A stretch of DNA of 39,420 bases from Candidatus Kapaibacterium sp. (GTDB taxonomy: Bacteria > Bacteroidota > Ignavibacteria > Kapaibacteriales > UBA4661), in NCBI GenBank assembly GCA_004292595.1, contig RDXM01000108.1, positions 1 to 39,420 of the forward strand. Reading direction: 5' to 3'. The notes under the pieces are model-generated. The model did not search any database and had not been told where the DNA came from. It was given only the letters and a program-made list of their open reading frames with translations. The stretch's first letter is position 1. Every line of letters begins with the position of its first letter. This document shows positions 13,937-35,419 of this stretch, in pieces. The translations under genes were made by a program, and so were the position numbers.

Positions 13937-13990
13937 AGCACACATCTTTTGCCTACTTGCTGCAAACGCAGGTTTTGTGCGGGTGAAATA

Positions 13991-14013: not shown

Positions 14014-14070
14014 CATTTGCGACAACCACAGCACACGTATTGATGCGCCCTTCAGACTTGTGTGCATAGA

Positions 14071-14167
14071 CGAGCTTTCTGAAGCGGTGAACGGGTTTCA
14101 CGGAAAAATTCTTACCGTGAAACCCGTGCGAGGTCAGCGTTCGCGCACTCCTCAGCCAGTAGGACAG
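14071..14167. repeat. 40-bp hairpin-unit repeat, head-to-head pair
   Basis: ACGGGTTTCACGG (14091-14103) and CCGTGAAACCCGT (14115-14127) form a perfect 13-bp stem around an 11-base loop. Outward from each arm runs one unit of the family. The left one (complement) shares about 35 bases with the unit at 23849-23887. The right one ends GTAGGACAGG, like the units at 35320-35410. An inner GCG-TTCG-CGC hairpin lies at about 14138-14147. Confidence 0.8.
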
Positions 14168-15556: not shown

Positions 15557-15896
15557 CTGGTCAGGTCTCAACCATGAAGAGGGGACGCAGATGGAGATGA
15601 TTGGATTGATGAAGATGATATTGATAAAAAAATCAGAGCGTGAATGCAGACTTCATCCGTTGGGAATGGTACAAAAATAAGTGGTACAAGTCAGTAGTGG
15701 CAGAGACATTCTTGTCTGTGGTTGTCGCCTGAAACCTGCATCAACGCGCACAGACAAGAATGTCTGTGCCACTAAATATTGTTGAAGTGTATCCATTTAA
15801 TTTTTGAGCCTTCCTTGTTGATGTTTTCTGCATTTTCATCATCTTCATCCATTCCATCATCTTCATCTGCGTCCAAAAAAATCATGACCTGACCAG
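15557..15896. mobile_element. 340-bp MITE-like element with terminal inverted repeats
   Basis: Begins CTGGTCAGGTC (15557-15567) and ends with the exact complement GACCTGACCAG (15886-15896). Inside each end, GATGAAGAT-rich sequence continues as an imperfect inverted repeat, left end to about 15623 and right end from 15815. The right 86 bases (15815-15900) recur inverted at 39324-39409 with two mismatches seen. It carries no transposase and encloses a copy of the 78-bp double-palindrome element. It occupies most of the 427-bp gap between the dioxygenase and sortilin-like genes. No clear target-site duplication is visible. Confidence 0.7.
15696..15773 (+). repeat. 78-bp double-palindrome element, copy B
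   Basis: Left arm 15696-15720 (one change: CAGAGAC for CACAGAC), core 15721-15748, right arm 15749-15773. Each arm is itself a palindrome, and the two arms are complements of each other. Core orientation is as in copies A and C. It is followed by 43 bases shared with copy A. Confidence 0.92.
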
Positions 15897-15965
15897 TTAC
15901 AAAGAAAAAATGAACGGTGTAATATTTTTAGAATTTTTAGACTGAGTTTTGGGCTGAGTGCGGCA

Positions 15966-18900
15966 TTATTCCTTCATCTTCACCGCATCCATCTTCCCGA
16001 AAATGCTAAATCCTGCGGCTTCCACCTGCTGTTTGTATGCCTTTACGTCGGTGTCGAAGAGCGTATTTACTTGCTCCAGCACTGTTTTTAAGCGAGCCTT
16101 TACTTTGTCAAATTTCACCAATGCTGGCTCGGAAGGCGCGTCAAAGCTCGAACCGATTGTTCCCAGCAAACCGTTCAACTGTGGCATAATTTCCGCAACG
16201 CGGTCGTAAATGCCAGAGCGGTCGTCATTCGGAAGGAGCTGCTCTTTCAGCGAATCCAGCTTGGTTTCAAGCGACTTTCCCAACTTCGCAATATCTTTCG
16301 ACTTTGCCGTGTCCATGAGCTTGGTGAACTCGCCAACGGTCTTGATTGCTTTCTTCGCATCCTGAATCTGCTTCACGGCTTGTGTGACGGTTTCAATCAT
16401 GCCGCCGACGCGCATTTGCAAATCGTACTGTGCTTTGAGTGCCGCAACATCAGTTTTCATGCGGGGTTCAGGCACAATTTCAAAAGGTTGTACTTGTGTT
16501 GTTCCCGCAAATTTCATTTTTGCCAAATATTTGCCCGGAAGGAGCGTAATTCCTGACGGGTCGGCATCTTCTGCTTTGCGTTCTGTTGCGCGGTAGCGGT
16601 CAAAATCTTTGCGGGCAAGGTCGAAGGCAATACGATTCAATCCTTTATTCATTGAACCCTTCAAAGTCCGCACCACTGCTGAATCCGCCGTCAAAATCTG
16701 CACGTCAATTTTCTGTGCTTTCGGCGTGTCGTTTTTCGCTAAAACGCTGTCTGCCGGATTCAAAACGTAGGAAATAAGCGTACCGTAAGGGCGATTCTCA
16801 CCTTTGAACATCGCGTGTCCCGTGCCGACGTAGCTGCCCGCCCAAAACTCGTTGTTGTAGATAACGCCTTTGCTTGGCTCAAATAAATGAAGCGGATTCT
16901 TTGCCAATGCCACATTTTTTGCCAACGTGCGCAAGGGGCGAATATCGTCCAAAACGTAGATTCCGCGCCCGTGTGTGCCGATAACAAGGTCGTGGTCGCG
17001 GGGGTGCGTGATAATGTCGTTCACAGGAACAGTCGGGAATCCTGCCATCCACTTTTGCCACTTCTTACCCGCATCAATGCTGACGTACAAGCCAAATTCT
17101 GTGCCGAGCCAGAGCAAATTCGGCTCGACAATATCTTGGCGAATAACGTGGCAATAGCCGTCAATGTCGTTTGTGGCAAGGGATTGCCACGTTTTGCCGA
17201 AGTCGCGTGTAACGAACACGTAGGTTTCCCAATTCGAGCGGCGGTGGTCGTCAAAAACCACAAACGCTGTTCCTGCATCGTGCCGCGATGCTTCCACGTG
17301 TGGCGACCACGCGCCTTTCGGCACAGCAGATTTCGCACCGTCGGTGAGGCTTGCGCTCACGCGCGACCACGTTTTTCCGCCATCTTGCGTGAGTTGTACG
17401 TTGCCGTCATCCGTTGCAACCCAGATTACGCCTTCCTTCACAGCACTTGGCGCAATGGACAAAATCGTGCAGTGATTTTCTGCCGCCGTTACATCCCGCG
17501 TTAAGCCGCCAGACTCAAAGGATTTCTGCTTTGTCGCATCATTGCTCGTGAGGTCAGGGCTGATTATTTGCCACGTGTTGCCTTTGTCGGTGCTTTTGTG
17601 CAAAAACTGACTGCCGTAGTAAAGCGTTTTCGGATTGAACGGGTCAAGCGCGATGCCTGCATTCCAGTTGTAGCGGTGCTTTACGTCGGGTTCGCTGAGT
17701 TTGGATTCCGTCGGGCGAATTGATTTACGCACACCCGTTTTTACGTGAAAATAGAACAAGCTGCCGCCTTGCGACATTCCGTAACCGTAGTTGTTGTCTT
17801 CGGGGTCGGGCAAGGTCGCAAAACCGTCGCCGAAGCCGACCATTTCAAAGTTGTAATTGTAAATGCCGTCGTACTTCAAACTGGTCGAAGGACCGCGCCA
17901 CGAGCCGTTGTCCTGCAAGCCGCCGTAGATGTTGAAGGGCGTGTCGTTGTCGAGCGCAACGTGGTAAAATTGCCCAAGCGGAAGATTGTCCACGAACCGC
18001 CAGTTTTTGCCATCATCCTCTGAAATGCCGATACCACCGTCGTTTCCGACAATCATGTATTTGCCGTTCGGGTGAATCCACAGCGCGTGGTGGTCGGGGT
18101 GAATCGTTGTGTAATTGTAGAGCGGAGCAAAGCTCTTACCCGCATCAATGCTTACGTCCATCGTTGTTTGCAAACGATAGACCGTGTTTTCGTGTTGCGG
18201 ATGAACACGAATGTCGCAGAAGTAGAAGGGACGCGGGTTTACGTCGTAGCGGCTGTTCACGGTGCGCCATTTCAAGCCGCCGTCGTCGGAGCGCAACAGA
18301 ACGCTTTCTTTCGCTTCCACAAGCGCGTACACGACGTTTGGATTCGACTGCGAAAAAGCAATGCCCGCACGTCCCAAGTTTCCTTCGGGCAAGCCGTCTT
18401 TATTGGTCAATTTTGTCCACGTCTCGCCGCCGTCGAAGCTAGAGTAGATGCCACTTCCCGCGCCGCCGGAATTGAAAAACCACGGATAGCGGCGGTGTTC
18501 CCACATTCCCGCAATAAGGTGATTCGGATTTGCGGGGTCTTGGGCAAGTTCGGCAGCACCTGTTTTATTATCCACAAACAAGGTTTTGCGCCATGTTTTG
18601 CCGCCGTCGGTGGTTTTGAACACGCCTCTGTCCGCACTCTCGCCCCATGTTGTTCCCATTGCTGCCGACCACGCAATATCTGGGTTTGTGGGATGCAGGA
18701 AAATTCTGTGGATGCGTTCTGTTTTTTCCAAACCAACATTCTTCCATGTTTTGCCGCCGTCGAGCGATTTAAACACGCCTCGCCCAACACCCGCACTATT
18801 CCTTACGTTCCCTTCGCCTGTGCCAACCCACACGATATTCGGATTTTGCGCAAAGCAAGCAATAGAGCCGATTGCAGAGGTGTTTTGTTCGTCAAAAATT

Positions 18901-19166
18901 GGTGTCCATGTTGTACCGCGATTGGTGGATTTCCACACACCGCCCGTAGCCGCACCAACATAGATAATATCAGGGTTCTGGGGGACGGACTCAATCGCTG
19001 CCACACGACCGCTCATGCCCGCCGGACCGATGGAACGAGCTTTCATGCCAGCGAGGAAGGCGGAATCAAGTTGAGCGAAAAGAGGATTTTTCACAATAGT
19101 AACAATAATCACACACAGAACAATATGACGAAGCATAGTAACGATGCGCCCTAGAAGCGAATTCAT
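15966..19166 (-). CDS. secreted BNR/sortilin (VPS10)-like beta-propeller protein
   Basis: 1066 residues from the ATG at 19166, which has AAAGGGA 7 bases upstream. The frame is open to 19361, but that part overlaps the next gene. An N-terminal signal peptide (LRHIVLCVIIVTIVKNPLFAQ) points to export. At least ten Asp-box repeats (SxDxGxTW) are visible, e.g. STNRGTTW, SLDGGKTW, TTDGGKTW, SFDGGETW, STDKGNTW and TQDGGKTW. They span about residues 60-750 and form one or two propellers as in VPS10/sortilin and sialidases. The last 300 residues are a beta domain followed by helical sequence. Homologues are often labelled glycosyl hydrolase, but no catalytic site is evident. No type IX C-terminal sorting domain is seen (it ends MDAVKMKE). 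The role may be binding or extracellular degradation. Confidence 0.88.
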   Translation of the reverse strand: MNSLLGRIVTMLRHIVLCVIIVTIVKNPLFAQLDSAFLAGMKARSIGPAGMSGRVAAIESVPQNPDIIYVGAATGGVWKSTNRGTTWTPIFDEQNTSAIGSIACFAQNPNIVWVGTGEGNVRNSAGVGRGVFKSLDGGKTWKNVGLEKTERIHRIFLHPTNPDIAWSAAMGTTWGESADRGVFKTTDGGKTWRKTLFVDNKTGAAELAQDPANPNHLIAGMWEHRRYPWFFNSGGAGSGIYSSFDGGETWTKLTNKDGLPEGNLGRAGIAFSQSNPNVVYALVEAKESVLLRSDDGGLKWRTVNSRYDVNPRPFYFCDIRVHPQHENTVYRLQTTMDVSIDAGKSFAPLYNYTTIHPDHHALWIHPNGKYMIVGNDGGIGISEDDGKNWRFVDNLPLGQFYHVALDNDTPFNIYGGLQDNGSWRGPSTSLKYDGIYNYNFEMVGFGDGFATLPDPEDNNYGYGMSQGGSLFYFHVKTGVRKSIRPTESKLSEPDVKHRYNWNAGIALDPFNPKTLYYGSQFLHKSTDKGNTWQIISPDLTSNDATKQKSFESGGLTRDVTAAENHCTILSIAPSAVKEGVIWVATDDGNVQLTQDGGKTWSRVSASLTDGAKSAVPKGAWSPHVEASRHDAGTAFVVFDDHRRSNWETYVFVTRDFGKTWQSLATNDIDGYCHVIRQDIVEPNLLWLGTEFGLYVSIDAGKKWQKWMAGFPTVPVNDIITHPRDHDLVIGTHGRGIYVLDDIRPLRTLAKNVALAKNPLHLFEPSKGVIYNNEFWAGSYVGTGHAMFKGENRPYGTLISYVLNPADSVLAKNDTPKAQKIDVQILTADSAVVRTLKGSMNKGLNRIAFDLARKDFDRYRATERKAEDADPSGITLLPGKYLAKMKFAGTTQVQPFEIVPEPRMKTDVAALKAQYDLQMRVGGMIETVTQAVKQIQDAKKAIKTVGEFTKLMDTAKSKDIAKLGKSLETKLDSLKEQLLPNDDRSGIYDRVAEIMPQLNGLLGTIGSSFDAPSEPALVKFDKVKARLKTVLEQVNTLFDTDVKAYKQQVEAAGFSIFGKMDAVKMKE

Positions 19167-19324
19167 AGCAAATTCCCTTTGAAATTGATGAGATGATTGA
19201 GGAGAGTAGTTTTTATTGAGGCAAGCACGAACATAGCATAAAATCTGGATTCTGGGAAATTTTTTTCGTAAAAAATGCGCAAGACCAGTGAGTAGAAGCC
19301 TCGCTCTGTCATACAATTTGTCCC

Positions 19325-19798
19325 TCACTCGCCACCCAACGCATTCTCTGGCGGAAGCCATTCCGTGCGGGCTTCAGACGAAAAGAGCCGTTCTTTTGTG
19401 TAAAACCGCAATGGATATTCGCGCCTCGCGCATTCGCTCTGGAGAAGAGCATTGATAAGCGTTTCAGGCGATTGCAGCGTTATTTCTCGTGCAAGAAATT
19501 CCTTGAGAAAGCGCACAACAACGTGAATGTAAAAGACCGTCAGCGTTTCGTGATAGCCGCTTGTGGTCGTATTTTCCACGCCCACCGCCAGATTGTAGGC
19601 GCGAATACGCGGACGAATATGCGACAAAAGCTCGCTTTCGGGCAGATGCAGCGCGTACCACATCGCCATAACGAGGTGCGCCGCGTGTGTCCATTCTGCT
19701 TTGGGCAATGTTCCTTGCTCAAAGCCAGTGATGATGCGCTCTACGTCGGAGGCGGTAAGTGAAAATTCGGTGGAATGGAATGTTGGTAAGGCGTTCAT
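19325..19798 (-). CDS. conserved hypothetical protein
   Basis: 157 residues, soluble and mostly alpha-helical. The sequence contains the conserved-looking blocks FEQGTLPKAEWTHAAHLVMA (two histidine/tryptophan positions), HIRPRIRAYNLAVG and TTSGYHETLTVFYIHVV. The regular His/Glu placement (TH-AAH, GYHE) suggests a metal or ligand pocket. I recall similar uncharacterised proteins with THAxHL...GYHET in proteobacteria and Bacteroidota, but no function is known to me. It starts at 19798. Its 3' end stays clear of the true start of the sortilin-like gene (19166), so the two may be co-transcribed. It is divergent from the sigma-factor gene. Confidence 0.8.
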   Translation of the reverse strand: MNALPTFHSTEFSLTASDVERIITGFEQGTLPKAEWTHAAHLVMAMWYALHLPESELLSHIRPRIRAYNLAVGVENTTTSGYHETLTVFYIHVVVRFLKEFLAREITLQSPETLINALLQSECARREYPLRFYTKERLFSSEARTEWLPPENALGGE

Positions 19799-20063
19799 GG
19801 TGGGTTCAAAATTTTGTATGCGAAAACAAGTATTCTTCCGTTAGACAGTATTCCGCCAAACGGCTATAATAGACGCTTGGATGGGATGAAACCTGAGCGT
19901 TTACAAAAATTCTACAATTCTTCTGCATTTCCTGTAACTTTTTTCTCGTTGCCTTGTTTTTCCTATTTGAGAGCCAAATAAAGTACCTGAAAGCAAGCAA
20001 ATACGCCAAAGATATGCGTGATTTTTTCAGGACTTCTTCACACACGATGCTACGGACTGAATT

Positions 20064-20651
20064 ATGCAGGCAGCCGTCCCTCAATCTATAGAGCAAACCG
20101 ACGAGGAACTTTTCGCGTTGGTGCGCGAAAATGCAAGCGAGCAAGCCTTTCGTACGCTTTATCGCCGATACGACAAACGTTTGTTTGCGTATTGTCTGCG
20201 AGCAATGCAAGCCCGCCAAGCGGCTGAGGACGTGTTCCAAAGCGTGATGACGCTGGTCTTTGAAAAACGACAATCATTTTCTGGTGGCAGTTTTGCGGCA
20301 TGGCTTTTCACGATTGCGCGAAACCAAACTTTGAATCACAAGCAGAAACAGCGCATCACGACGGACATTGACGACGTTGCGTATTCCATGAGCGATGAGA
20401 GCGACAGAACTGGCGAAGATGTTTTCTTATCCGACGCGCTCAAACAAGCAGTTTCCACGCTTCCAGAGGATTACCGCGAAGCATTAGAACTTAAACACTT
20501 CGACGGCTTTGCCTACGAAGAAATTGCACAAATGCTGAATATCTCGCTTTCGCTGGCAAAAGTGCGTGTCTTTCGCGCCAAGAAAATGTTACAGGAATCG
20601 CTTGCGCCCTACCTCCGCGAGCTTTCTGCGACGAATAGTGAGGAAATGTAA
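20064..20651 (+). CDS. ECF-type RNA polymerase sigma factor
   Basis: 195 residues of the sigma-70 family with regions 2 and 4 only. Region 2 spans about 25-95 (FRTLYRRYDKRLFAYCLRA, QAAEDVFQSVMTLVF, AAWLFTIARNQ). Region 4 spans about 130-185 (LPEDYREALELKHFDGFAYE, EIAQMLNISLSLAKVRVFRA), which is the helix-turn-helix reading the -35 element. The next gene (20816) is a membrane protein with an anti-sigma-like N-terminus on the same strand, which fits the usual ECF/anti-sigma pairing. It is the only recognised transcription regulator gene in this half of the window. The target regulon is unknown. Confidence 0.93.
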   Translation: MQAAVPQSIEQTDEELFALVRENASEQAFRTLYRRYDKRLFAYCLRAMQARQAAEDVFQSVMTLVFEKRQSFSGGSFAAWLFTIARNQTLNHKQKQRITTDIDDVAYSMSDESDRTGEDVFLSDALKQAVSTLPEDYREALELKHFDGFAYEEIAQMLNISLSLAKVRVFRAKKMLQESLAPYLRELSATNSEEM

Positions 20652-20729
20652 CGAGAAAGTATAAGAAGAAAATTTTTGTTGAAAATGTGATGCAGCAAGC
20701 TACCTCTTTCTGCGCCACAACGCCCCAAA

Positions 20730-20765
20730 AACGGAGATGATGCAGGATTTTTCCGTTCTTTTTTG
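20730..20765 (+). terminator. weak intrinsic terminator after the sigma-factor gene
   Basis: AACGGA (20730-20735) pairs with TCCGTT (20752-20757), followed by CTTTTTTG. The 6-bp stem with a 16-base loop is short, so it could be partial or attenuating and still allow read-through into the anti-sigma-like gene. Confidence 0.4.
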
Positions 20766-20815
20766 ATTATCATTGTCTATGCAAAATATCTGACCACATT
20801 TATCTTACTTGCGCC

Positions 20816-21874
20816 ATGACAAACGATGAACTTTTGGCACTCTATCTTGACAATACGCTCTCGGAAGCGGAGCGTCAAGAATTTGAGGTGCGCTTGCAAG
20901 GCTCTCCAGAGCTGATGCAGGAGATGAAAGAGCTTCATGCTATCCAAAATATGCTCTTTACGCCAGCAAAAGACGATGCGCTTTCGTTTGCATTTCTGCG
21001 CAGCGTGGAGAACAATATCGCGGCTTCCATTCTGGCTTCTGGCGCGGCAGCAACAGGCGCAGTTGTCTCGGCAGCGAGCCTCAAAACAGGCGCGAGTGCT
21101 GTTGCGAGCGTTGCAGCGCAAACTGCCGTTAGCACGGGCGGCACGAGTATTGGTGGAATGTGGGCATCGGCAGTGGCATCGGTCAGTTCGAGCCTTGTTG
21201 GAGCAAGTTTAGCGGCGGCAAGCGTGATAGGAAGCGGCGTAGCAGTGTATTACGCGGTCAGTCCGAGTGTCGCAGAAAAAGCTGCGCCGCAGCAAACTCC
21301 AGCGCAGAGACCACAACCATTACCAGAAAAGCAACAGCACATTGTACAAGAGCAGCAACTACCACCTTCTCCCACAGCAAGCAGCGCAGCAAGCGCAACC
21401 TCTCCGGTAGAAAAATCTCGTATCGTAAGCAATACTGCGGAAGCGGAAAATACTGCACACGAAGCACCGCACTCGGCGGAGTATTCTGCGCGAATTAGCG
21501 GCGGCACAAGCATTCAAGGGCGCTTTGCCGCAAGCATTCAGGAATATCGGCGGCAACTACAAGAAAAAGAAACTACCGGAGACCGCATTGGTGCTGCATT
21601 AGTAGAAAAGTCGCTTGCCTCAGTTTTGCGCGAAGCGGCACAGTTTTCTGAAAGCCGCCGTTACGGGCAAAAAGCCTTGAAAGCCGCACAACAACTGGGC
21701 ATGAAAGAGTTAGAAGGTGATTTGTATGGTGAGCAAGGACTTCTCTTGCTTGCCGAAGGAAAATCCACACAAGCAGAAGAGGCATTGCGCAATGCCGTCG
21801 ATATTCTCACGTCCCAGCAAAGCCGCAATGCCGCTCGTTGGCAGCGTGAGTTAGAAAAACTGACCAATAAATAA
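20816..21874 (+). CDS. membrane anti-sigma-like protein with C-terminal TPR region
   Basis: 352 residues. The first 45 (MTNDELLALYLDNTLSEAER) match the start of many anti-sigma factors, in which a short helical domain clamps the ECF factor. The HCC zinc motif is absent. Residues about 60-145 are Ala/Ser/Gly-rich, with a transmembrane segment near 125-145 (LVGASLAAASVIGSGVAVYY). A Pro/Gln/Ser-rich linker (about 150-220) follows. The C-terminal part (about 240-352) is helical with TPR-like repeats (ALVEKSLASVLREAAQFSES, YGQKALKAAQQLG, GLLLLAEGKSTQAEEALRNA). It is probably the membrane-bound partner of the sigma factor 164 bp upstream, with the TPRs outside or as a protein-binding platform. The anti-sigma role is inferred from position and N-terminus. 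Confidence 0.75.
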   Translation: MTNDELLALYLDNTLSEAERQEFEVRLQGSPELMQEMKELHAIQNMLFTPAKDDALSFAFLRSVENNIAASILASGAAATGAVVSAASLKTGASAVASVAAQTAVSTGGTSIGGMWASAVASVSSSLVGASLAAASVIGSGVAVYYAVSPSVAEKAAPQQTPAQRPQPLPEKQQHIVQEQQLPPSPTASSAASATSPVEKSRIVSNTAEAENTAHEAPHSAEYSARISGGTSIQGRFAASIQEYRRQLQEKETTGDRIGAALVEKSLASVLREAAQFSESRRYGQKALKAAQQLGMKELEGDLYGEQGLLLLAEGKSTQAEEALRNAVDILTSQQSRNAARWQRELEKLTNK

Positions 21875-22125
21875 CGACAATAACACAGCACACAACGACA
21901 ACTATCAACCATAATATCAATCTCAGCACCGACCGACCACAGTAGCGCGTTTAGACCGACAGCAGAGGAAGAAAGAAAATGTAAGAGTACATTCACAAAT
22001 CAGGAGCGGCAGTAATAACGATGGCACAGATGCTGAGGGGTAATGGGTGTTGCAACGAGGCATTGTGTGAAATCTGTCGGCATTATTTCACCGCAACTCA
22101 GGATTCAATTTGTTCATAGAAACCA

Positions 22126-22250
22126 TCGAAGAAACCGTTAGAAAACGGCATCTCTCATTAAAGGGGAAGTAGTTCTCAATCGGGCATCGGTTGAATAACT
22201 ACAAAGCGGCAATAGGCACGTGTGAAGGCTTATTGTCGCTTTTTATTTTC
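22126..22250 (+). ncRNA. candidate structured small RNA or 3' UTR
   Basis: The 383-bp gap 21875-22257 between convergent genes has no plausible ORF. Its right end holds three consecutive hairpins on the + strand: CCGTT/AACGG around 22135-22148; GTAGTT ... CAATC/GGTTG ... AACTAC at 22169-22202; and a terminator hairpin at 22203-22242 followed by a T-rich tract. An unpaired AAAGGGGAAG lies just before the second hairpin. A further GTGAAAT/ATTTCAC stem lies upstream near 22067-22091. It could be an independent small RNA or the structured 3' end of the anti-sigma-like mRNA. It matches no family I can name with confidence. Confidence 0.35.
22203..22246 (+). terminator. intrinsic terminator between convergent genes
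   Basis: AAAGCGGCAATA (22203-22214) pairs with TATTGTCGCTTT (22231-22242) apart from one G-T position, and TTTTATTTT follows on the + strand. An AAAA-like stretch on the other side is short, so it probably serves mainly the + strand and may also stop the PD40 gene on the - strand. Confidence 0.75.
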
Positions 22251-22257
22251 AATCGTT

Positions 22258-23655
22258 TTATTTGCTTGCTGTCTGCATATCCACATCAAAACGTAGTATT
22301 TTCGAGCGTTGTAGGCTCGGCGCAACAATCATCCGCTTGACTTCTTTATAGCCTTGCACGACAATATGCTGCTCGTAGCTTTTTCCGGGCATCAGCACCG
22401 TAGAAAAATAGCCAGAAGCCGCATTACTGCTTACTTCTTCTTCCTCTTCGCTGCTTTTTGCACGAAAGGTTATTTTGGCAGCAAGCGGCGTGCTCGTGGT
22501 TTTATCTTTCACCGTTCCCGTCACCACCACGACTGGAAGCGGCTTTACGGCGTTCTGTGCGGTGCCGAGCTTTGCCATATACATATCGTCGTTGCGGCTA
22601 AAATAGGCTTCATCGCCCGCCGCACTGACCACAAAGCCGTAGTCGTCGGCTTTCGTGTTAAAGGGTTCGCCGATGTTGGTAATATCGCTCACCGAGCCGT
22701 CATCGTTCAATGTGGCTTTGAAAATATCTAATCCGCCAAAGCCACCGAAACCGTCCGACGCAAAATAGAGCGTTTTGCCGTCGGCGGCAAGGAATACCGA
22801 GCGTTCATTGCCCTCGGTGCTGATTGCGAGCTTCTGGCAGAGTAACCATCCCGCTTTGCCCGCTTTGCGGCTCCAATACAAGTCCATTGGTCCATCGTAA
22901 TCCTGCCCACACGCAACCACGAAAATACGCCCGTTCGGAGAGAATGCCGCGCCGTCGGTGGCGTACTGCTCCTTATTTTTGCGCCGCATTTCGCTGAAAA
23001 AGAGGTTGATACCACCGCCTATACCCATAACATTTGTCCACGATGCTCCATTTGTGCCGCCGAGGTGCGCTGTCCAGTACGGACCGCCCTTCTCGCGCCA
23101 GCCCTGCCGCCAGCTTTGAAAGGTAACGGTTTGCCCGTCGGGAGAAATACTTGGTTCGTCCTCGCCGCGTGAGGTATTTATCGTGGAATCAAGGCATTTC
23201 GGCTCCTGCCATACATCATTGACACGCTCGGAGTACCAAATATCGCCATCGAAACGCTCACTCGAATCAGGATGCCGCGACCATACTTGTTCGCCTCGGT
23301 CGGACAAGAAAAACATCAGCCGTCCGTCGGGCGTAAGCGAGATATTGCGCTCGTTGAGCGATGAGTTCAACTGATTGAGCCGCGTAATGGTTATGTTTCC
23401 TTTATTTGTCAGCGTTTTGATTTTCAGCTTTGGCAACGCGGTATTTGCATCCGCTTGTGGCAGAAGGACAGATGGAAGCGCGACGGACAACATCAATCCA
23501 TAGAAAACATATCCGCAGAACCTGAGGCAGAATCGCTTGAGCAGCCGAGTATTGCTGGGGTCAGCATTGCTGGCGAAATACGAAAAAATACGCTGACGGC
23601 GAAGAGTGGAAAAGCAGCGAGCGAAGAGCGGGAGAAGAAAAGCAAGCGGAGGCAT
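22258..23655 (-). CDS. PD40 beta-propeller protein (TolB-like) with carboxypeptidase-regulatory-like end
   Basis: 465 residues from the ATG at 23655, though a later start before the hydrophobic export signal (YVFYGLMLSVALPSVLLPQADA, about residues 50-72) is possible. The middle contains WD40-like PD40 repeats: NISLTPDGRLMFFLSDR, EPSISPDGQTVTFQSW, GAAFSPNGRIFVVACG and KTLYFASDGFGGFGGLDIF, the last being very typical of Bacteroidota envelope proteins. A C-terminal beta domain (VTGTVKDKTTSTPLAAKITF) resembles a carboxypeptidase-regulatory-like domain. This layout recalls PorE/OmpA-type periplasmic proteins that carry PD40 and CRD domains, but both the TPR and the OmpA peptidoglycan-binding domain are missing. 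It is predicted to be periplasmic or surface-anchored. Link to type IX secretion is speculative. Confidence 0.8.
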   Translation of the reverse strand: MPPLAFLLPLFARCFSTLRRQRIFSYFASNADPSNTRLLKRFCLRFCGYVFYGLMLSVALPSVLLPQADANTALPKLKIKTLTNKGNITITRLNQLNSSLNERNISLTPDGRLMFFLSDRGEQVWSRHPDSSERFDGDIWYSERVNDVWQEPKCLDSTINTSRGEDEPSISPDGQTVTFQSWRQGWREKGGPYWTAHLGGTNGASWTNVMGIGGGINLFFSEMRRKNKEQYATDGAAFSPNGRIFVVACGQDYDGPMDLYWSRKAGKAGWLLCQKLAISTEGNERSVFLAADGKTLYFASDGFGGFGGLDIFKATLNDDGSVSDITNIGEPFNTKADDYGFVVSAAGDEAYFSRNDDMYMAKLGTAQNAVKPLPVVVVTGTVKDKTTSTPLAAKITFRAKSSEEEEEVSSNAASGYFSTVLMPGKSYEQHIVVQGYKEVKRMIVAPSLQRSKILRFDVDMQTASK

Positions 23656-23779
23656 GATAAACTCAATGAAGTAGAAAAAAATCAACAAACTGTGAACACA
23701 CCTCGAAAAATACGTGTTTTTTCTCTTCTTTGCACATCTTTTTATTGGAAAACAACGGAAATTTTGAAAGTCAATGCAG

Positions 23780-23836
23780 AACACCTTTCCGAGCGGCTAT
23801 TATGCTTGCGATAACAGCCGCTTGGGTGTGTTTTTT
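23780..23836 (+). terminator. long hairpin with T-tract on the + strand
   Basis: AGCGGCTATTAT (23792-23803) pairs with ATAACAGCCGCT (23811-23822), with one mismatch and a 7-base loop. Flanking ACACC/GGTGT extends the pairing, and TTTTTT follows at 23831-23836. It reads as a terminator on the + strand although both flanking genes (PD40, proS) are on the - strand. It may stop antisense transcription or be a folded proS 3' end. Confidence 0.55.
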
Positions 23837-23848
23837 ATGAAAATTTTT

Positions 23849-23887
23849 CGTGAAACCCGTTCACCGCTTCAGAAAGCGTAGGACGGG
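23849..23887 (+). repeat. 40-bp hairpin-unit repeat, single copy
   Basis: Reads CGTGAAACCCGTTCACC, then GCTT-CAG-AAAGC, then GTAGGACGGG. It shares about 35 bases with the left arm of 14071-14167 (complement). It is also similar to each 40-bp unit at 35320-35410. It sits immediately after the proS stop. Confidence 0.8.
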
Positions 23888-23899
23888 AAAATGCAAGGC

Positions 23900-25411
23900 T
23901 TAATACGCCACAGCAAAGAGCACACGCCGCTTTGAGGGCTTGCCAGAGTAAATACATACGCCGTCTTCTTCTGGTGCGCCAAGCGGAATGCAGCGAATCG
24001 TGGCTTTGGTTTCTTCTTTGATTTTCTGCTCGGTTTCGTCCGTGCCGTCCCAGTGCGCAAGCACGAAGCCGCTTACCGCGCCTTCGCCGCGTCCCATGAT
24101 TGCTTTGAACTCGTCGTAGCTATCGACATTGCGCGTGTTGGCGGTGCGGAAAGCGAGTGCTTTATTGTACATATTTTGCTGAATTTCCTCCAATAAATTT
24201 TGTACCGTGTCCGCCAGACCTTCGATATTTGCGACGGTTTTCGCGCCTTCTTCGCCACGCTCTTTGTCGCGGCGCGAAACTTCAATCGTGCCATTTTGCA
24301 AATCGCGCTCGCCAAGTGCCAAACGCACCGGAACGCCGCGCAATTCCCAATCGGCAAACTTAAAGCCAGGTGTCATGCCGTCTCGCGTATCGAATTTCAC
24401 CGAAATATCACGCGCTATCAGGCTTTTACGGATTTCGTCCACTTTTGCGGTAATCGCAGCAAGCTGTTCTTCGCTTTTGTAAATCGGCACAATCACCACT
24501 TGAATTGGAGCCAGTTTCGGCGGAACAATCAAACCGTTGTCGTCCGAATGCGCCATGATGAGCGCACCCATAAGGCGCGTACTCACGCCCCACGACGTTC
24601 CCCAGACGTGTTCTAGCTTGTTTTCTTTGTTCGAGAACTGCACGTCGAATGCTTTGGCGAAATTCTGTCCCAAAAAGTGCGATGTTCCTGCTTGCAACGC
24701 CTTTCCATCCTGCATCATTGCTTCGATGCAGTAGGTTTCTTCTGCGCCTGCAAAGCGTTCATTCGCGGTCTTTACGCCTTTGAAGACGGGCAATGCCATA
24801 AATGTTTCGGCAAATTCTGCATACACATCCAGCATCTGCTCAGTTTCTTTCACGGCTTCGTCTGCGCTTGCGTGGGCGGTGTGTCCTTCTTGCCAGAGGA
24901 ATTCGGTTGTCCGCAAAAAGAGGCGCGTCCGCATTTCCCAGCGTACCACGTTTGCCCATTGATTGATGAGCAAGGGCAAGTCGCGGTAGGACTGAATCCA
25001 GTTTTTGTACGTGTTCCAAATCACCGCTTCCGATGTAGGGCGCACAATCAATTCCTCTTCCAAACGCGAGTCGGGGTCTGCCATGAGCGCACCTTTTTTA
25101 TCGGGGTTTGCTTTCAAGCGATAGTGCGTCACAACCGCGCATTCCTTCGCAAAACCTTCGGCGTGTCCTTCCTCTTTTTCAAGGAAACTTTTCGGCACAA
25201 AGAGCGGAAAATAAGCGTTGGTGTGTCCTGTGGCTTTGAACATATCGTCGAGTGCGCGTTGCATTTTTTCCCAAATCGAATAGCCGTAGGGCTTAATCAC
25301 CATGCAGCCACGCACCGCCGAGTTTTCGGCAAGGTCGGCGCGTTTTACAAGGTCGTTATACCATTCGGAATAATTTTCACTGCGTTTCGGGAGGGCGGCT
25401 TTTGTACTCAT
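23900..25411 (-). CDS. proS: prolyl-tRNA synthetase (archaeal/eukaryotic type)
   Basis: 503 residues, class II aminoacyl-tRNA synthetase charging tRNA-Pro. It is the short form without the YbaK-like editing insertion. Visible features are the N-terminus [30 protein letters not shown] (Pro-binding TxE), motif 2 around [21 protein letters not shown], motif 3 [16 protein letters not shown], and an anticodon-binding domain from about residue 285 ([13 protein letters not shown]). The family-typical C-terminal zinc-like end ([10 protein letters not shown] ... [18 protein letters not shown]) is present and complete. This type is normal for Bacteroidota relatives. It lies alone, flanked by repeats on both sides. 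Start at 25411 gives the standard N-terminus. Confidence 0.97.
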
Positions 25412-25501
25412 TTTTTCAAAGAAGTGTTAAGTTGTAGGTGTTGAGTTTTATGTTTTTTGGGGATACGACAAAGTCTCTGGAGTCAGGTAATATCAGGCTT
25501 C

Positions 25502-25579
25502 GGTGGCACAGACATTCTTGTCTGTGTTCCTTGCCTGAACGCTTCACCAACATTCACAGACAAGAATGTCTGTGCCACT
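25502..25579 (+). repeat. 78-bp double-palindrome element, copy C
   Basis: Arms 25502-25526 and 25555-25579, core 25527-25554, all the same lengths as other copies. Core orientation as in A and B. The 25 or so bases after it (AATTTTGTCGTGTACTGAG region) match, inverted, the bases before copy D, so these two copies share a flank. It fills much of the 231-bp gap upstream of proS. Confidence 0.92.
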
Positions 25580-25642
25580 CATGAAAGAATTTTGTCGTGT
25601 ACTGAGTTATTTATTGAATTCTGTGTATTGCGCTACTTGTCT

Positions 25643-26239
25643 TTATGCGGTTTGCGGGGAAATCCATTTCGCAACGACTTGGGGTTGATACGACCGCATT
25701 TGCTCAAGTGTATCACGTACCGATGAGCCTACTAGCAGCATAGAACGGTTCTCTTCGCGGAGGAAGCCTTTCTGCACCGTTTCCTGCAAAAATGCTATCA
25801 GTGTATCGTAAAAACCTGCTACGTTCAAGAGTGCGACGGGCTTAGAATGCAGCCCAAGCTGCCCCCACGTGAGCATTTCAAAAAGTTCTTCCAATGTTCC
25901 CATGCCGCCTGGCAGCGCGATGACACCATCGCAAAGTTCATTCATTTTGAGTTTGCGTTCGTGCATGGTTTCGACCAAGTGCAATTCCGCCAGCCGCGTG
26001 TGTGCAAGCTCTCTTCGTTGCAAAAAATGTGGCAGAACGCCAATAACTTCGCCGTTTTTAGACAATGCGCCATCAGCAACTGCGCCCATCAGCCCAACAT
26101 TCGCGCCGCCATACACCAAGCCGATGCCTTGCTCTGCAAGGGTTTTGCCGAGTTCAAAGGCAATGTCTTTGTACACGCCAGTCGCGCCAAAACTTGAGCC
26201 ACAAAAGACAGAAACTCGCTTCATTGGTTGATTGGTCAT
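25643..26239 (-). CDS. LOG-family Rossmann protein (TIGR00730; possible cytokinin riboside 5'-monophosphate phosphoribohydrolase)
   Basis: 198 residues, full length for the LOG family. The nucleotide-binding and catalytic signature PGGMGTLEE is at 110-118, with the accompanying MHERK (92-96), an N-terminal VFCGSSFG and LVYGGANVGLMG. LOG enzymes hydrolyse N6-modified adenosine monophosphates, or more generally nucleoside monophosphates, to base plus ribose 5-phosphate. In bacteria the physiological role is mostly unclear. Either ATG 26239 or 26224 is possible; neither has a good Shine-Dalgarno sequence. It stands between proS and the SAM methyltransferase with repeat-like spacer DNA upstream. 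Confidence 0.93.
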   Translation of the reverse strand: MTNQPMKRVSVFCGSSFGATGVYKDIAFELGKTLAEQGIGLVYGGANVGLMGAVADGALSKNGEVIGVLPHFLQRRELAHTRLAELHLVETMHERKLKMNELCDGVIALPGGMGTLEELFEMLTWGQLGLHSKPVALLNVAGFYDTLIAFLQETVQKGFLREENRSMLLVGSSVRDTLEQMRSYQPQVVAKWISPQTA

Positions 26240-26308
26240 TAGTTACTTGGTGTTTGGTTATTTGGTCGTAGAAATGTCTTCAAACCTTTATCCCTTTGCC
26301 CTCATCCT

Positions 26309-27193
26309 TCATCCTTTTTTTGCCGCTTCCATAAAGAGCGAATCTGCTTTGCGCACCGTTCCTTGCGGCGTGGAATCAAGGAGATAGCTGGAAAAATTGG
26401 GAATGCGGCTTTCATCGAAGCGGCAGACGCGAATATCGCTGAAACCAACTTCGCGTAAAAGCTGTCCAAGCGAGATTCTATCATACATCCAGAGGTGCAG
26501 CTCGCCCGAAGAACGGAAAAGACTTTCCTTGAACGCCGCCGCCGCACCAGAACCCGCCAAAAGCCGCACCGCAGCTTGCGCCAATGCCTCACGTACTTTC
26601 TGAATAAGGAACGACGGGCTTTTGGAAAGAACTTTTTGGAGTAATGATTTCTGTGCAGAATGTTGTGCAGAGTGTTGTGCACCTTGCTGCGGAGAAGCCT
26701 GATTCTGCGCTACTTTCAGCCATTCCTCTGCTTCATCGCCGATACGCTCGACGAGATATTCTGCATTCTGCAAATTCGGACGCAAAATATACGCGCCCAT
26801 TTCGCCGCCAACTTTCGTGCGCACCATTTGGTCGAGCAGTTCCAGTATCATCCACTCGTGATTTTGTGCGGTGTTTGGGCTGGTTGTGGTGCTGGACATT
26901 TCATCCAGCAAGCGCACATATTCGCGGGCTTTATTTTCCAAATCTGGCACCACAACCCGCACAATTCCGCCCTTTTTCAACACCCGAAACTGCTCTTGGA
27001 GCGAGATGCGGGCGTGGTGCGGCGTGAGATGCTCCAGCACGTGCGAGGTGTAGGCGGCATCGAAGCTGTTCTCGGCGTAGGGAAGCCCTTTGCGGAGGTC
27101 GTAGGCGCGTACTTCGGGCGCAGTCGAAACGAGGTCAATGTTTGTCCACGCGGGATGAAAATGCCCGCCGCAGCCGATATTGAGAAGGTTCAT
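26309..27193 (-). CDS. class I SAM-dependent methyltransferase (type 11 like)
   Basis: 294 residues from the ATG at 27193 (MNLLNIGCGGHFHPAWTNID). The frame is open farther upstream only because it reads through the 78-bp repeat, so that extension is not native. SAM-binding motif I is LNIGCGG, followed by the acidic residue in NIDLV, then SFDAAYTSHVLEHLTP and VLKKGGIVRVVVPDLE (motifs II/III). This arrangement is common among methyltransferases in polysaccharide clusters. Residues about 160-180 hold a Gln/His/Ser repeat (AQHSAQHSAQKS) from a 12-bp tandem repeat. The C-terminal half is a substrate lid of unknown specificity. Glycan methylation is inferred from the glycosyltransferase genes just upstream. 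Confidence 0.85.
   Translation of the reverse strand: MNLLNIGCGGHFHPAWTNIDLVSTAPEVRAYDLRKGLPYAENSFDAAYTSHVLEHLTPHHARISLQEQFRVLKKGGIVRVVVPDLENKAREYVRLLDEMSSTTTSPNTAQNHEWMILELLDQMVRTKVGGEMGAYILRPNLQNAEYLVERIGDEAEEWLKVAQNQASPQQGAQHSAQHSAQKSLLQKVLSKSPSFLIQKVREALAQAAVRLLAGSGAAAAFKESLFRSSGELHLWMYDRISLGQLLREVGFSDIRVCRFDESRIPNFSSYLLDSTPQGTVRKADSLFMEAAKKG
26652..26687 (-). repeat. in-frame 12-bp tandem repeat (3 units)
   Basis: TGTGCAGAATGT, TGTGCAGAGTGT and TGTGCACCTTGC follow each other (plus-strand reading). In the gene they encode AQHS repeated twice with a diverged third unit, in a linker of the methyltransferase. Confidence 0.8.
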
Positions 27194-27250
27194 GAACGAT
27201 GGAAGATGAGGATACACGTTTAGCTCAGTACACAACAAAATTTCTTCAGT

Positions 27251-27328
27251 AGTGGCACAGACATTCTTGTCTGTGAGTATTGGTGCAGGTTTCAAGCGAT
27301 GAACACAGACAGGAATGTCTGTGCCACT
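27251..27328 (-). repeat. 78-bp double-palindrome element, copy D (reverse core)
   Basis: Arms 27251-27275 and 27304-27328 with a 28-bp core. The core reads in the opposite orientation to copies A-C. It lies between the GT2 gene and the methyltransferase and supplies the spurious upstream reading frame of the latter. Confidence 0.92.
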
Positions 27329-27360
27329 GAAGCCTGATTGTACCTATTGACTCTGTTCAT

Positions 27361-28104
27361 TTATTTTTTACTATTTCTTGCTGGCAAGCGCCGAGAACGC
27401 CCAAAGAGCGAGGAAAATCGCAGCTTCCAGACGAGCCATGCTGCTTCCCCAATAATATTTTTGCTCATTTTGGAAACGCCGTTTAATCTATCGACAAACA
27501 CAATCGGTATTTCCACAATACGTGCGCCGCGTTTCCAGCATTTGAAGTTCATTTCAATTTGAAACGCATAGCCGTTGGAATGGATAGCTTTCAAGTTGAT
27601 TGTCCGCAAAATATCCACGCGGAAGCACTTGTAGCCGCCTGTTGCGTCGTGGATGGGCATTCGCGTAACCCAGCGTGTGTACTGGTTTGCGAACCAACTG
27701 AGCAAGAGGCGTTGCATGGGCCAGTTCACCACATTTACGCCCGTCAAGTAGCGTGAACCCAGCACCACATCTGCGTTTTCGATTGCTTCCAAAAACTTGG
27801 GAATTTCTTTCGGGTCGTGTGAAAAATCAGCATCCATCTCGAAAACGAGGTCGTAATTGCGCTCAATCGCGTAGAGAAATCCTTCGCAGTATGCCGTTCC
27901 CAAGCCCAGCTTTCCTGCGCGTTGTAGCAAATGCACACGCGTCTCGGTTTGCTGCATTTCCTTCACCAATGCGGCAGTGCCATCGGGAGAATTATCATCC
28001 ACAACGAGAATTTCTACAAGCGGATGCACCTCCAAGACCGCACGGGTAATGGCGCGGACGTTATCGCTTTCGTTGTAGGTGGGAATAATGATAAGAATTT
28101 TCAT
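27361..28104 (-). CDS. GT2 glycosyltransferase, polyprenol-phosphate mannose/glucose synthase (DPM1-like)
   Basis: 247 residues from the ATG at 28104 (MKILIIIPTYNESDNVRAIT). Motifs of the dolichyl/polyprenyl-phosphate mannosyltransferase group are ILVVDDNSPDGTA (nucleotide-binding Asp-Asp), GLGTAYCEGF, the metal-binding MDADFSHDP, DVVLGSRYLTG and GGYKCFRVDIL. The C-terminus ends LFGRSRR with no membrane helices, as in the soluble DPM1 type. It transfers a hexose from GDP- or UDP-sugar to a lipid carrier, supplying donors for surface glycosylation. It follows the polyprenyl-phosphate sugar transferase gene by 121 bp on the same strand. Sugar identity is not readable. Confidence 0.92.
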   Translation of the reverse strand: MKILIIIPTYNESDNVRAITRAVLEVHPLVEILVVDDNSPDGTAALVKEMQQTETRVHLLQRAGKLGLGTAYCEGFLYAIERNYDLVFEMDADFSHDPKEIPKFLEAIENADVVLGSRYLTGVNVVNWPMQRLLLSWFANQYTRWVTRMPIHDATGGYKCFRVDILRTINLKAIHSNGYAFQIEMNFKCWKRGARIVEIPIVFVDRLNGVSKMSKNIIGEAAWLVWKLRFSSLFGRSRRLPARNSKK

Positions 28105-28225
28105 GAGCAAATATTCAAAGAGAGGGGAGGAAAAGATGAGGGGTGAAATCTGAGGGCTGAAGCAAGGAAAGAAGCGGCTTCCCAGCAAAAACTTCCTCCT
28201 TCATATTTCAACCTTCATCCTTTCG

Positions 28226-29809
28226 TCAAGTTCTTCCATGCCCTTTGATAACACGAACAACCGTGCGGGCAATAATTTCAAGGTCGAGACGAAACGAGAC
28301 ATTTTCGATGTAGTAAAAATCGTAAATGAGTCGCTCACGAATCGCATCAATGCTTTCTTGGTATTGCAAATAGTTGTAGCTCACTTGCCACCAGCCCGTG
28401 AGTCCTGGACGCACCTTGTGGCGGCGCGGGTAGTAGGGAATTGCAGCAGTGAAACGTTCTACAAAAAGCGGCATTTCTGGGCGCGGACCGACAAGACTCA
28501 TATCGCCCTTTAAAATGTTTATCATTTGCGGAATTTCATCTAAATGTGTCTTGCGAATAAGCCGCCCGAAGCGCGTTACGCGGGCATCATTGACCTGCGT
28601 AAATCCAATTTTCTTTTCCGAGCCTGCGTACATGGAGCGAAATTTATACATCATAAAGGGAGTGTTGTAGCGTCCAATGCGTGGTTGTCGGAAAATCGCG
28701 CCGCCAGGAGTTTCGAGTTTGACAATAAGCGCAATCAAGAGCCACAGCGGCGAACCCAGCACCAATACGAGCAAACTCACGATAATATCAATGATGCGCT
28801 TGATAGCTCGCTGCCACGGGGTCATAATTTGCGAACTGATTTCGATAAGCGAAATGCCGTAAATATGCTGTGCGCGGGTTTGTCCAGAGAAAATTTCGTA
28901 GAGGTCGGGAACAATTTTCATCGTGATATTCCGCTCTTCGCACTCGCCCGCAATACGCAGCAGTTCCTCGTGGTTGGGGGCTTCGACGGCAACGATGATG
29001 CTGTCTGGCTTCGCGGTATCAAGAATGGTGGCGGCTTCGGCAAATGTTCCTAAAATAGGCATGGTTGCGGTGAAGTGTCCTTGATAACTTGCCAGCCATT
29101 TTTCTAATTCCGCCGCTTCGTTCATAACAATACCAACGGGCTGAAACCCAAATGCTGGTGCGTGATGCAGCGATTCGACAAGCGAAGAAATATTTTCCGC
29201 ACAACCGAAGAGAATCACGCGAAAGCTGATAATTCCTCGCTTGCGAAAGATATTTTGCAAAACGCGAGCAGTAATGCGCCCACCAGCGACGCTGAGAAAA
29301 AAAGCGAACCAGTACATCAAGACCAGAAGCCGCGTATTTGCTGCATTGCTGAGGTCATCCAGAAAAATCACGATGCCAAGCAGACAGCTTCCTAAAAACG
29401 TCACGCGCAAAATAGTAAAAAATTCATCGAAGGTCGAGCGCACGTACCAATCGGCATACAAGCCCGAAAACCAAAATACCGTGAGCCAATATCCCAACAA
29501 AGCAATTCCAGCAAACGCTAGAAACCACGAGCTTTCCGAGCTGACAAAAGGCTGCGTAAAAACGGTAACAGACGTTTCAAAGAACCCACTATAAAAGCGC
29601 AATGCGTAATAGACCACAAAACTGAGTCCGTAGCCCAGCACGTCAAATACAAGCTGGTAGGTGCGCGGCGAGCGCGGCACAAACAAGCATTTTCGCGCTT
29701 CTTCGGGAATTCGTACAGGTACAGCCGCAGAATCTTCCGAAGAAAATGGTTCTTGGGAAGAAGGCGCGGAAGCGGTATGAAGAGAAGATTGTGTGCGAGG
29801 TGGTTGCAT
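28226..29809 (-). CDS. polyprenyl-phosphate sugar-1-phosphate transferase (exopolysaccharide initiating enzyme, WbaP/WcaJ-like)
   Basis: 527 residues. A Ser/Pro/Gln-rich cytoplasmic N-terminus (1-45) is followed by four or five transmembrane helices (about 50-190) and a CoA-binding-like Rossmann region (about 195-320, VILFGCAENISSLVESL). A further helix and the bacterial sugar transferase domain (about 325-527) complete it. That domain has KRIIDIIVSLLVLVLGSPLW, GGAIFRQPRIGRY, MYKFRSMY, LIRKTHLDEIPQMINILKGD, MSLVGPRPE and RHKVRPGLTGWWQV, all core motifs. It loads a hexose-1-phosphate on undecaprenyl phosphate, the first committed step of exopolysaccharide or O-antigen units. The start at 29809 gives a natural N-terminus. 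Neighbouring GT2 and ligase genes support a glycan role. Confidence 0.94.
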   Translation of the reverse strand: MQPPRTQSSLHTASAPSSQEPFSSEDSAAVPVRIPEEARKCLFVPRSPRTYQLVFDVLGYGLSFVVYYALRFYSGFFETSVTVFTQPFVSSESSWFLAFAGIALLGYWLTVFWFSGLYADWYVRSTFDEFFTILRVTFLGSCLLGIVIFLDDLSNAANTRLLVLMYWFAFFLSVAGGRITARVLQNIFRKRGIISFRVILFGCAENISSLVESLHHAPAFGFQPVGIVMNEAAELEKWLASYQGHFTATMPILGTFAEAATILDTAKPDSIIVAVEAPNHEELLRIAGECEERNITMKIVPDLYEIFSGQTRAQHIYGISLIEISSQIMTPWQRAIKRIIDIIVSLLVLVLGSPLWLLIALIVKLETPGGAIFRQPRIGRYNTPFMMYKFRSMYAGSEKKIGFTQVNDARVTRFGRLIRKTHLDEIPQMINILKGDMSLVGPRPEMPLFVERFTAAIPYYPRRHKVRPGLTGWWQVSYNYLQYQESIDAIRERLIYDFYYIENVSFRLDLEIIARTVVRVIKGHGRT

Positions 29810-29981
29810 TCAAGTAATCGTCGTTACGGGCGGTCAATGATGGCGCATATATGCTCCATTCCAGTTGCAAATATAGAACTCTTCAGGGAAACACGCAATG
29901 CAGCAATGGAAATTCCTTTGGAAAGGAGGAAGGTACTTGTAAGATTTTGTTGGAAAAGAAGAATCGAAAAGATAAAATATT

Positions 29982-30059
29982 CAGTGGCACAGACATTCCT
30001 GTCTGTGAACTTTTGTGCGGGTTTTAAGCGATAAACACAGACAAGAATGTCTGTGCCAC
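29982..30059 (-). repeat. 78-bp double-palindrome element, copy E (reverse core)
   Basis: Arms 29982-30006 and 30035-30059, 28-bp core in the same reverse orientation as copy D. Left arm has CATTCCTG for CATTCTTG. It lies in the 280-bp gap between the hotdog thioesterase and the sugar-transferase gene. I see nothing else in that gap. Confidence 0.92.
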
Positions 30060-30089
30060 TATTGACACCACTCATTTTTATCATATCGC

Positions 30090-35410: not shown

Positions 35411-35419
35411 AACCACATA

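Follow-up and report, generated by a model that had tools for sequence, protein, structure and literature searches.

Paired extragenic palindromes of a Candidatus Kapaibacterium genome, their IS4-type carrier and a tyrosine transposase encoded within recG

Contig RDXM01000108.1 of a Candidatus Kapaibacterium sp. assembly (GCA_004292595.1), analysed over its full 39,420 nt (hereafter the window), carries a set of 78-bp palindromic elements: what are they, and what copies them? The window is contig C73 of a 4.6-Mb genome in 199 contigs (G000; G, C and L are our handles for genomes, contigs and loci). An earlier note on this DNA had reported four copies of exactly 78 bp and a fifth cut by the left edge. 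Three of the four lie where it had placed them, at 15696-15773 (copy B) and 25502-25579 (copy C), both with the core on the + strand, and at 27251-27328 (copy D), with the core on the - strand. The fourth, copy E, is also 78 bp long and on the - strand, but is one base off (29983-30060, not 29982-30059). The partial copy A occupies 1-54 on the + strand, with its right arm at 30-53, and is cut by the edge of window and contig; positions 1-97 are 93% identical to 15720-15816 at copy B. With B and C forward, D and E reversed and A reading like B, the proposed orientation of A, B and C against D and E stands.

As also described before, each full copy has two 25-bp arms, complementary at 24 of 25 positions in all four, and each arm is in turn a hairpin with an 8-bp stem (7 of 8 positions paired in the copy at 15696). 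In the window arms a GTGG foot precedes CACAGACA-TTCT-TGTCTGTG, and the two inverted units enclose a 28-bp core. When 20 single-base shuffles of the window were scanned for a 25-28-25 inverted repeat with at least 23 of 25 positions matching, none was found, against three in the real window; the fourth full copy was missed solely through the first-base filter of the scan. The clover or cruciform with four nested pairings once suggested for these copies was ruled out, their predicted single-strand fold being one long stem of about 25 bp (z from -8.3 to -10.4). No window copy falls within a convincing gene: merely short open frames cross C and E, and in the long open reading frame (ORF) that overlaps D the first Met comes at 27193, past the copy.

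The 78-bp copies are REPINs, i.e. paired inverted repetitive extragenic palindromes (REPs), of one family. At up to three mismatches the arm has 584 matches in the genome (294 forward and 290 reverse) and its reversed control none, so that the high copy number proposed earlier was found and the prospect of only a few copies falls away. Matches occurred in 8 of the 61 genomes searched (own and relatives): 584 in G000, 622 in G005, 265 in G007, 211 in G001, 103 in G006, 3 in G020 and 2 each in G002 and G009. Within the taxonomic family, which has ten genomes here, five (G002, G003, G004, G008 and G009) have 0-2 matches and lack the transposase in the recG loop described below. The elements are inverted REPs with a short spacer, at high copy number and mostly extragenic, and REPs of the same family flank a REP-associated tyrosine transposase (RAYT) with HUH and Tyr motifs (G000:C139). 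GTAG variants of the foot occur in G002, G007 and G009; excerpts of PMC6006769 give a 5' GT[AG]G tetranucleotide at the hairpin foot as a REP feature, and the window arms have it.

Two properties of the window copies proved less general in a 402-kb sample of the genome (the window plus 20 stretches, partly picked for known arms; arms accepted at up to five mismatches), which held 76 arms, arranged as 31 inverted pairs and 14 single arms. The length is constant in the window, but in the sample only 22 of the 31 pairs had the 28-bp core, the others ranging from 22 to 49 bp, and the shared sequence often exceeds 78 bp. All window copies lie between genes, as had been stated, but 5 of the 45 REP places in the sample were inside open frames of at least 200 codons, three of them in recG (the other 40 were outside).

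Insertion sites of the family differ between sister species. Where G000 has copy C, the intergenic stretch of the sister genome G005 is shorter and lacks the REPIN; at the site of copy E, G005 has no pair, only one degenerate arm. To the left of copy D there is no synteny, and on the right a G005 REPIN lies about 150 bp from the homologous block. In a further 9-kb region, five elements were compared with G005: two were shared (one pair identical, flanks included, over the aligned stretch), one fell at a contig break, and the intergenic spots of the other two hold an unrelated palindrome in G005. Positions in relatives are therefore not identical, a comparison that the note had asked for. Conserved gene leaders or RNA elements such as attenuators or riboswitches could account for strong folds placed between co-directional genes, as the copies are in the window; however, no Rfam match reached the gathering score, positions differ in the sister species, the neighbours of the hundreds of copies differ, and many copies come with target duplications (see below). 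We ruled this reading out and grant it next to no probability.

The palindrome that is unrelated to the REPs, CCCTCTCCC...GGGAGAGGG, occurs in G005 at three spots that hold REPs in G000, once in frame in recG (G005:C78, L089) and twice between genes (G005:C23; L227 and L228).

Unrelated copies of the REPIN have about 152 bp in common, not 78: many REPINs are the centre of a miniature inverted-repeat transposable element (MITE) of this length, with IS4-type ends and 9-bp target duplications. The ends of this carrier, CTTTGTACACGACAAAA and its complement, have 66 matches in the genome and none in the control. For the carrier search, the best 40 of 420 candidates were scored against one query copy, which favours intact copies. 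For the duplications, 30 loci were fetched and 28 kept (one duplicate and one without left flank were dropped); a direct repeat of at least 8/9 flanked 16 of the 28, nine of them with 9/9, versus 17 of 2000 mixed pairs. With terminal inverted repeats resembling those of an IS4-family element and a target duplication of fixed length (9 bp), the carrier shows two IS4-family traits. Similar ends are found on a Methylobacter plasmid: an IS4-family transposase (DDE_Tnp_1 match, 7.3e-14) lies there in an element whose 18-bp ends read CTAAGTACAGGACAAAAA and which the 9-bp repeat CTTCCGTCC directly borders on either side. The matching flanks had first suggested that the outer inverted repeats form a covarying RNA stem; the flanks were later accounted for by MITE ends, which come in variants, and by target duplications.

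In the window, the carrier round copy C keeps an intact outer terminal inverted repeat at 25590-25606 (- strand, on which it reads CTCAGTACACGACAAAA) and a degenerate one at the opposite end (25461-25473, + strand, GGATACGACAAAG); the G005 counterpart of this site is the one that lacks the REPIN. The carrier round copy D has an outer terminal repeat with one mismatch at 27224-27240 (+ strand, CTCAGTACACAACAAAA), its other end not being recognisable, and copy E is without recognisable carrier ends. The flank of copy B (15774-15816, + strand) is common to copy A and G000:C40:7599 and belongs to a second carrier type, with TAAGGAA-like ends. This second type, whose ends are TAAGGAAYGG-like, holds the same REPIN at 1-97 and 15696-15816 of the window and at L042, L048 and L276, and has no established target duplication.

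How far can an IS4-type element account for the repeat? Among the 31 sampled pairs, 17 had at least one carrier end within three mismatches, eight of them both (4-6% expected by chance per side), and five had the inner flank only; these counts are approximate, the matching being loose and copy B being counted for both carriers. That the repeat is simply an IS4-derived MITE, with the REP arms as its internal hairpins and the RAYT unrelated to its spread, agrees with the IS4-type ends and 9-bp duplications of many copies, and with a 119-bp carrier without REPIN that has its own 9-bp duplication, read by eye (G000:C68:12773). The latter, however, also shows that the two parts are separable. In addition, seven of the 31 pairs bear no carrier mark and five bear marks of the second carrier type, two of them only those (again approximate numbers), and the same REPs flank a RAYT in inverted order in three genomes. 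We therefore regard a MITE without any part for the RAYT as unlikely, and favour a REPIN family that acquired MITE carriage. Y1 transposases are not known to make target duplications, and therefore the 9-bp duplications mean that a RAYT cannot be the sole copier of the REPINs. The earlier proposal of active copying, REPIN- or MITE-like and possibly by a RAYT, thus holds as to mobile REPINs and the presence of a RAYT; the IS4-type MITE round many copies had not been foreseen.

Where is the RAYT? A Pfam Y1_Tnp search of the genome gave two places, a remnant on C19 and C139:7101-7331. The C139 match lies in a frame of 1060 codons that is RecG (RecG equivalogs up to 839.8 bits). REP_Tyr_transpos (NCBIfam) scores 74.6 bits on the whole RecG ORF and 79.3 bits on the excised domain, for a cut-off of 80, and this domain is its sole match in the genome at E <= 1e-10. 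From N- to C-terminus, RecG motif II (DEQHRFG) is followed by two forward REPs read as VAQTFLSV, by the RAYT, by an inverted REP read as QTRMSVP and a variant REP, and by RecG motif III. The RAYT motifs are intact (RNLPHW...PDHVH...YIQANP, i.e. HUH and Tyr), and there is no Met between RecG motif II and the LPHW motif. Apart from C139, no RecG was found with a RecG query of this genome, whose other two matches, both on C117, were far weaker. Thus recG contains, in its own reading frame and between inverted REPs of the 78-bp repeat family, a RAYT, the best-fitting transposase for these repeats. A RAYT-type transposase elsewhere in the genome had been considered possible, and one next to a copy of the repeat was to be looked for; its position within recG had not been foreseen. 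The C19 remnant (G000:C19:31-315, L031) is an IS200-like transposase with two stops, at a contig end.

The same nesting between motifs II and III is found in three of the ten genomes of the taxonomic family (G000 and its congeners G006 and G007), with inverted REPs of the 78-bp repeat family on both sides of the RAYT in all three. G006 has it in the same RecG loop, with RAYT DNA identical to that of Ignavibacteria bacterium isolate Clear-D13; in G007 the loop is again the same, with the two parts of the gene on separate contigs that break at the repeat. G007 also has a stand-alone RAYT, with flanking repeats that differ from the 78-bp repeat family. The recG loop of G005 holds the other palindrome, and those of G001, G002, G003, G004, G008 and G009 are short. 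No splicing (Hint) domain was present among the 8 Pfam matches of the RecG ORF or the 25 of 37 NCBIfam matches shown, nor among the matches of the other nested ORFs scanned, at stricter limits.

As judged from open frames and family matches, the nested arrangement recurs within housekeeping genes of other bacteria. An alignment of four RAYTs, three of them RecG-nested (A1, a query hence biased to nested relatives), was used to scan one genome per species, and the best 80 of at least 458 confirmed loci were retained. An open frame of at least 120 amino acids is present on both sides of the RAYT in 35 of the 80, and in 42 the RAYT is in frame with a named host protein: alanyl-tRNA synthetase (AlaRS, 13), RecG (7), DNA methyltransferases (5), ThrRS (3), PurH (3), IleRS, MetH and RdgB (2 each), and PriA, a RarA-like ATPase, GcvP, a DrmD-like helicase and archease (once each). 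Twenty representatives were scanned by NCBIfam, ten of them also by Pfam; these scans assigned a host to 18 of them, but none to L127. The names for L164 and the other members come from their similarity to scanned representatives. Several host scores are below curated cut-offs, as expected for split genes. Contig ends truncate some of the 42 loci, among them L133, L166 and L196; L149 and L164 have their RAYT close to the N-terminus. Order-wide, methyltransferase-like frames were seen by eye in G012, G083 and G100 (the last may be the same record as L133).

The inserts recur at the same places of their hosts. ThrRS, PurH, MetH and IleRS have one insertion site each, AlaRS two (11 and 2 cases, two of the 11 being judged from the N-terminal side alone) and RecG two areas, that of our genome and a Chthoniobacterales type. 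In a tree of 83 RAYTs, the G000, G006 and G007 trio groups with two non-nested RAYTs (support 100/95), and in a verrucomicrobial group (92/92) 25 of 26 rows are nested, 25 of the 26 forming an inner set (99/99). PurH-nested and ThrRS-nested rows are single clades there; AlaRS-nested and RecG-nested rows are not. Flanking inverted repeats scored at least 13 in 38 of 42 nested versus 19 of 37 other loci and at least 18 in 30 of 42 versus 14 of 37 (95th and 99th percentiles of mixed pairs, 13 and 22). The repeat of the AlaRS-nested locus L168 has 11, 12 and 20 copies in its own and two other carrier genomes (reversed control, 0) and was absent from G487 in the same search.

Two further observations concern single loci. 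The RAYTs of L139 and L150 are 91% identical but occupy different AlaRS sites, a hint that the RAYT itself has moved recently. In L142:3-3692, a MetH open frame apparently holds two RAYT domains, one of them cut by the contig edge.

Are the nested RAYTs still transposases, and how might they be expressed? The HUH motif is kept in 42 of 42 nested and 38 of 38 other RAYTs, and Y..NP in 39 of 42 and 36 of 38, respectively; of the three nested exceptions, L130 retains the Tyr (YIEANA). Start codons were counted for 38 nested RAYTs, the upstream frame of the remaining four of the 42 being too short, and for 38 others. Of these, 1 nested RAYT and 19 others have an ATG in the 20 codons before the LPH motif; for 40 codons the numbers are 8 and 30, and for an ATG with a Shine-Dalgarno-like stretch 1 and 6. 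The ratio of nonsynonymous to synonymous substitutions (dN/dS) of the RAYT was defined in 10 of 11 pairs and was 0.04-0.16 in these, a rough value as dS exceeded 1.5 in seven of the ten. In six pairs the identities of RAYT and host C-terminal part run parallel (85/81, 74/73, 77/75, 78/77, 73/74 and 69/70%), the first four falling among the same four AlaRS genes, and in four they are less so (86/93, 77/80, 69/59 and 76/80%). The nested RAYT could be a dead passenger, a neutral in-frame loop insert with its transposase activity gone: the catalytic Tyr position is lost in two nested cases (L166 and L191), and close relatives of the carriers live without the nested RAYT. Retention of the catalytic motifs in all but three of the 42 and dN/dS values that in most pairs are within the range of the host enzyme tell against this, and we judge it rather improbable.

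The best PDB relative of the A1 profile by sequence is 4er8 (TnpArep, a RAYT bound to a REP hairpin), which is also the best PDB fold match of the Clear-D13 RecG-RAYT model (E 1.1e-8). That model, from a 54-row alignment, has a mean pLDDT (predicted local distance difference test) of 50.8, with the RAYT mostly at 88-98. An AlaRS-RAYT model (28 rows) reached a mean pLDDT of 73.7 and a predicted template modelling score (pTM) of 0.40, at which domain placement is unreliable. Its RAYT, at about 451-600, has pLDDT values of 72-93 in 10-residue blocks, between linkers (418-450 and 602-624) below 50. AlaRS entries make up most of the top PDB matches of this model, and 4er8 follows at rank 43 (E 3.1e-5).

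Taken together, a REPIN family with a recG-nested RAYT, carriage by an IS4-type MITE and persistence of the RAYT cassette in host proteins is an explanation that we consider likely. Mobilisation of the REPINs by the RAYT and expression of the fusion are inferred. The RAYT would act on single-stranded REP hairpins during replication, and so make or move REPINs; a REPIN would have landed in an IS4-derived MITE, and the composite would then have spread by IS4-type transposition. The REP-RAYT-REP cassette would sit in permissive loops of important host proteins and be translated within the host polypeptide, and since it could be lost solely by in-frame removal, it would persist. More broadly, RAYTs of this group may have an intein-like lifestyle without splicing, a proposal to which we give an even chance: the cassette would land repeatedly, in the same loops and in frame, in housekeeping enzymes (RecG, PriA, RarA-like ATPase, AlaRS, ThrRS, IleRS, PurH, MetH and GcvP), lack a start codon of its own and be synthesised solely within the host protein, as an additional domain. 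The host gene would guarantee its expression and protect it from deletion, and in some lineages it would have become a lasting part of the enzyme.

Several observations weigh against the explanation considered likely. For the carrier, 12 of the 28 copies are without a good target duplication, and all that is seen of the cognate IS4-type transposase is 41 residues that read as its C-terminus, next to the same carrier end where contigs G000:C19 and C191 break off; the fragment has no meaningful Pfam or NCBIfam match, and its best annotated relative, the Methylobacter plasmid transposase, is weak (E 0.01). For the RAYT, G001 (211 arms) and G005 (622) are REP-rich but have no RecG-nested RAYT, G005 having two other RAYT-like matches. 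The RAYTs of the three carriers are 45-53% identical, versus 83-92% for the C-terminal parts of RecG, which makes simple vertical inheritance of the nested RAYT within the genus doubtful, and it was dropped as unsupported. The RecG C-terminal part of G001 is 99% identical to that of G006, yet G001 is without the insert; this and the low RAYT identity therefore suggest that the cassette has been gained or lost often, or replaced, in the genus. When GTG and TTG are counted together with ATG, a start codon with a Shine-Dalgarno-like stretch is found for 7 of 38 nested and equally 7 of 38 other RAYTs, and thus nested RAYTs may be initiated internally. The RecG part of the Clear-D13 model (AlphaFold) is poor, with much of it below a pLDDT of 50, and the RecG structure from this thin alignment was set aside. 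In a phylum control with REP_Tyr_transpos, less biased than the A1 scan (395 genomes, 251 with a match; nested meaning a frame of at least 400 codons, by hand count), just 5 of the 150 rows listed were nested; nesting is thus uncommon among RAYTs as a whole and clusters in this group.

The nested cases are, moreover, metagenome bins by their record titles, and in G007 a contig end within the repeat divides the copy, so that nesting might be an assembly artefact of repeats in such bins. We think this very improbable: independent assemblies agree on host, loop and frame (e.g. the 11 of 13 AlaRS cases at one site), and several nested cases are well inside long contigs, with joins in frame and motifs intact.

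If the preferred explanation is right, a RAYT within a needed gene provides a simple and testable reason for RAYT persistence. Single-strand transposition is thought to occur at replication forks, and nesting puts a hairpin-cutting enzyme in one polypeptide with RecG, PriA or a RarA-like ATPase, proteins that act there. The REPIN-in-MITE composite also shows that the number of REPs in a genome is not necessarily a gauge of how active its RAYT is.

The window holds other repeats as well. Positions 15815-15903 and 39321-39409 are inverted repeats of one another over 89 bp, at 98% complementarity, and contain simple repeats of the GATGAAGATGAT type. A palindromic family starting CCCGTTC is present at 14074-14110, 23844-23888 and 35316-35412, and another, TAGTCCACCTTTGAGGTGGACTA, at 11491-11519 and 13988-14016.

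The system described here is like the REPIN/RAYT systems (REPtrons) of Pseudomonas and E. coli in its GT[AG]G-footed inverted hairpin pairs, at high copy number and mostly intergenic, and in its HUH-Tyr transposase, closest in the PDB to 4er8 and flanked by its own REPs; it is unlike them in that the RAYT is not a free gene but in frame in recG, and in that many REPINs ride in an IS4-type MITE. In searches of open-access papers we recognised none that describes a RAYT gene lying in frame within another gene. In excerpts of their texts, PMC6006769 describes REPs within tnpAREP genes and leaves out proteins longer than expected as 'gene fusions or annotation errors', so that the nested class could have been overlooked in that survey, and PMC8266576 describes RAYTs as behaving like housekeeping genes, without evidence of mobility of their own. 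The in-frame REPs and Rickettsia palindromic elements presented in part of PMC3733652 are likewise palindromes in frame within protein genes, many of them DNA repair genes and also tRNA synthetases, but those inserts are of 20-82 amino acids and consist of the repeat only, unlike the whole transposase domain of about 150 amino acids between repeats found here. The carrier resembles IS4-family insertion sequences and MITEs in its ends (CTNWGTACACGACAAAA, versus CTAAGTACAGGACAAAAA in the Methylobacter element) and 9-bp target duplications, and is unlike them in having the REPIN of another transposase system at its centre. Finally, inteins and nested homing endonucleases also place a DNA-cutting enzyme in frame in housekeeping genes at recurrent sites, as the nested RAYTs do; unlike inteins, the scanned ORFs have no splicing domain among their family matches, and the insert appears to be retained as an extra domain.

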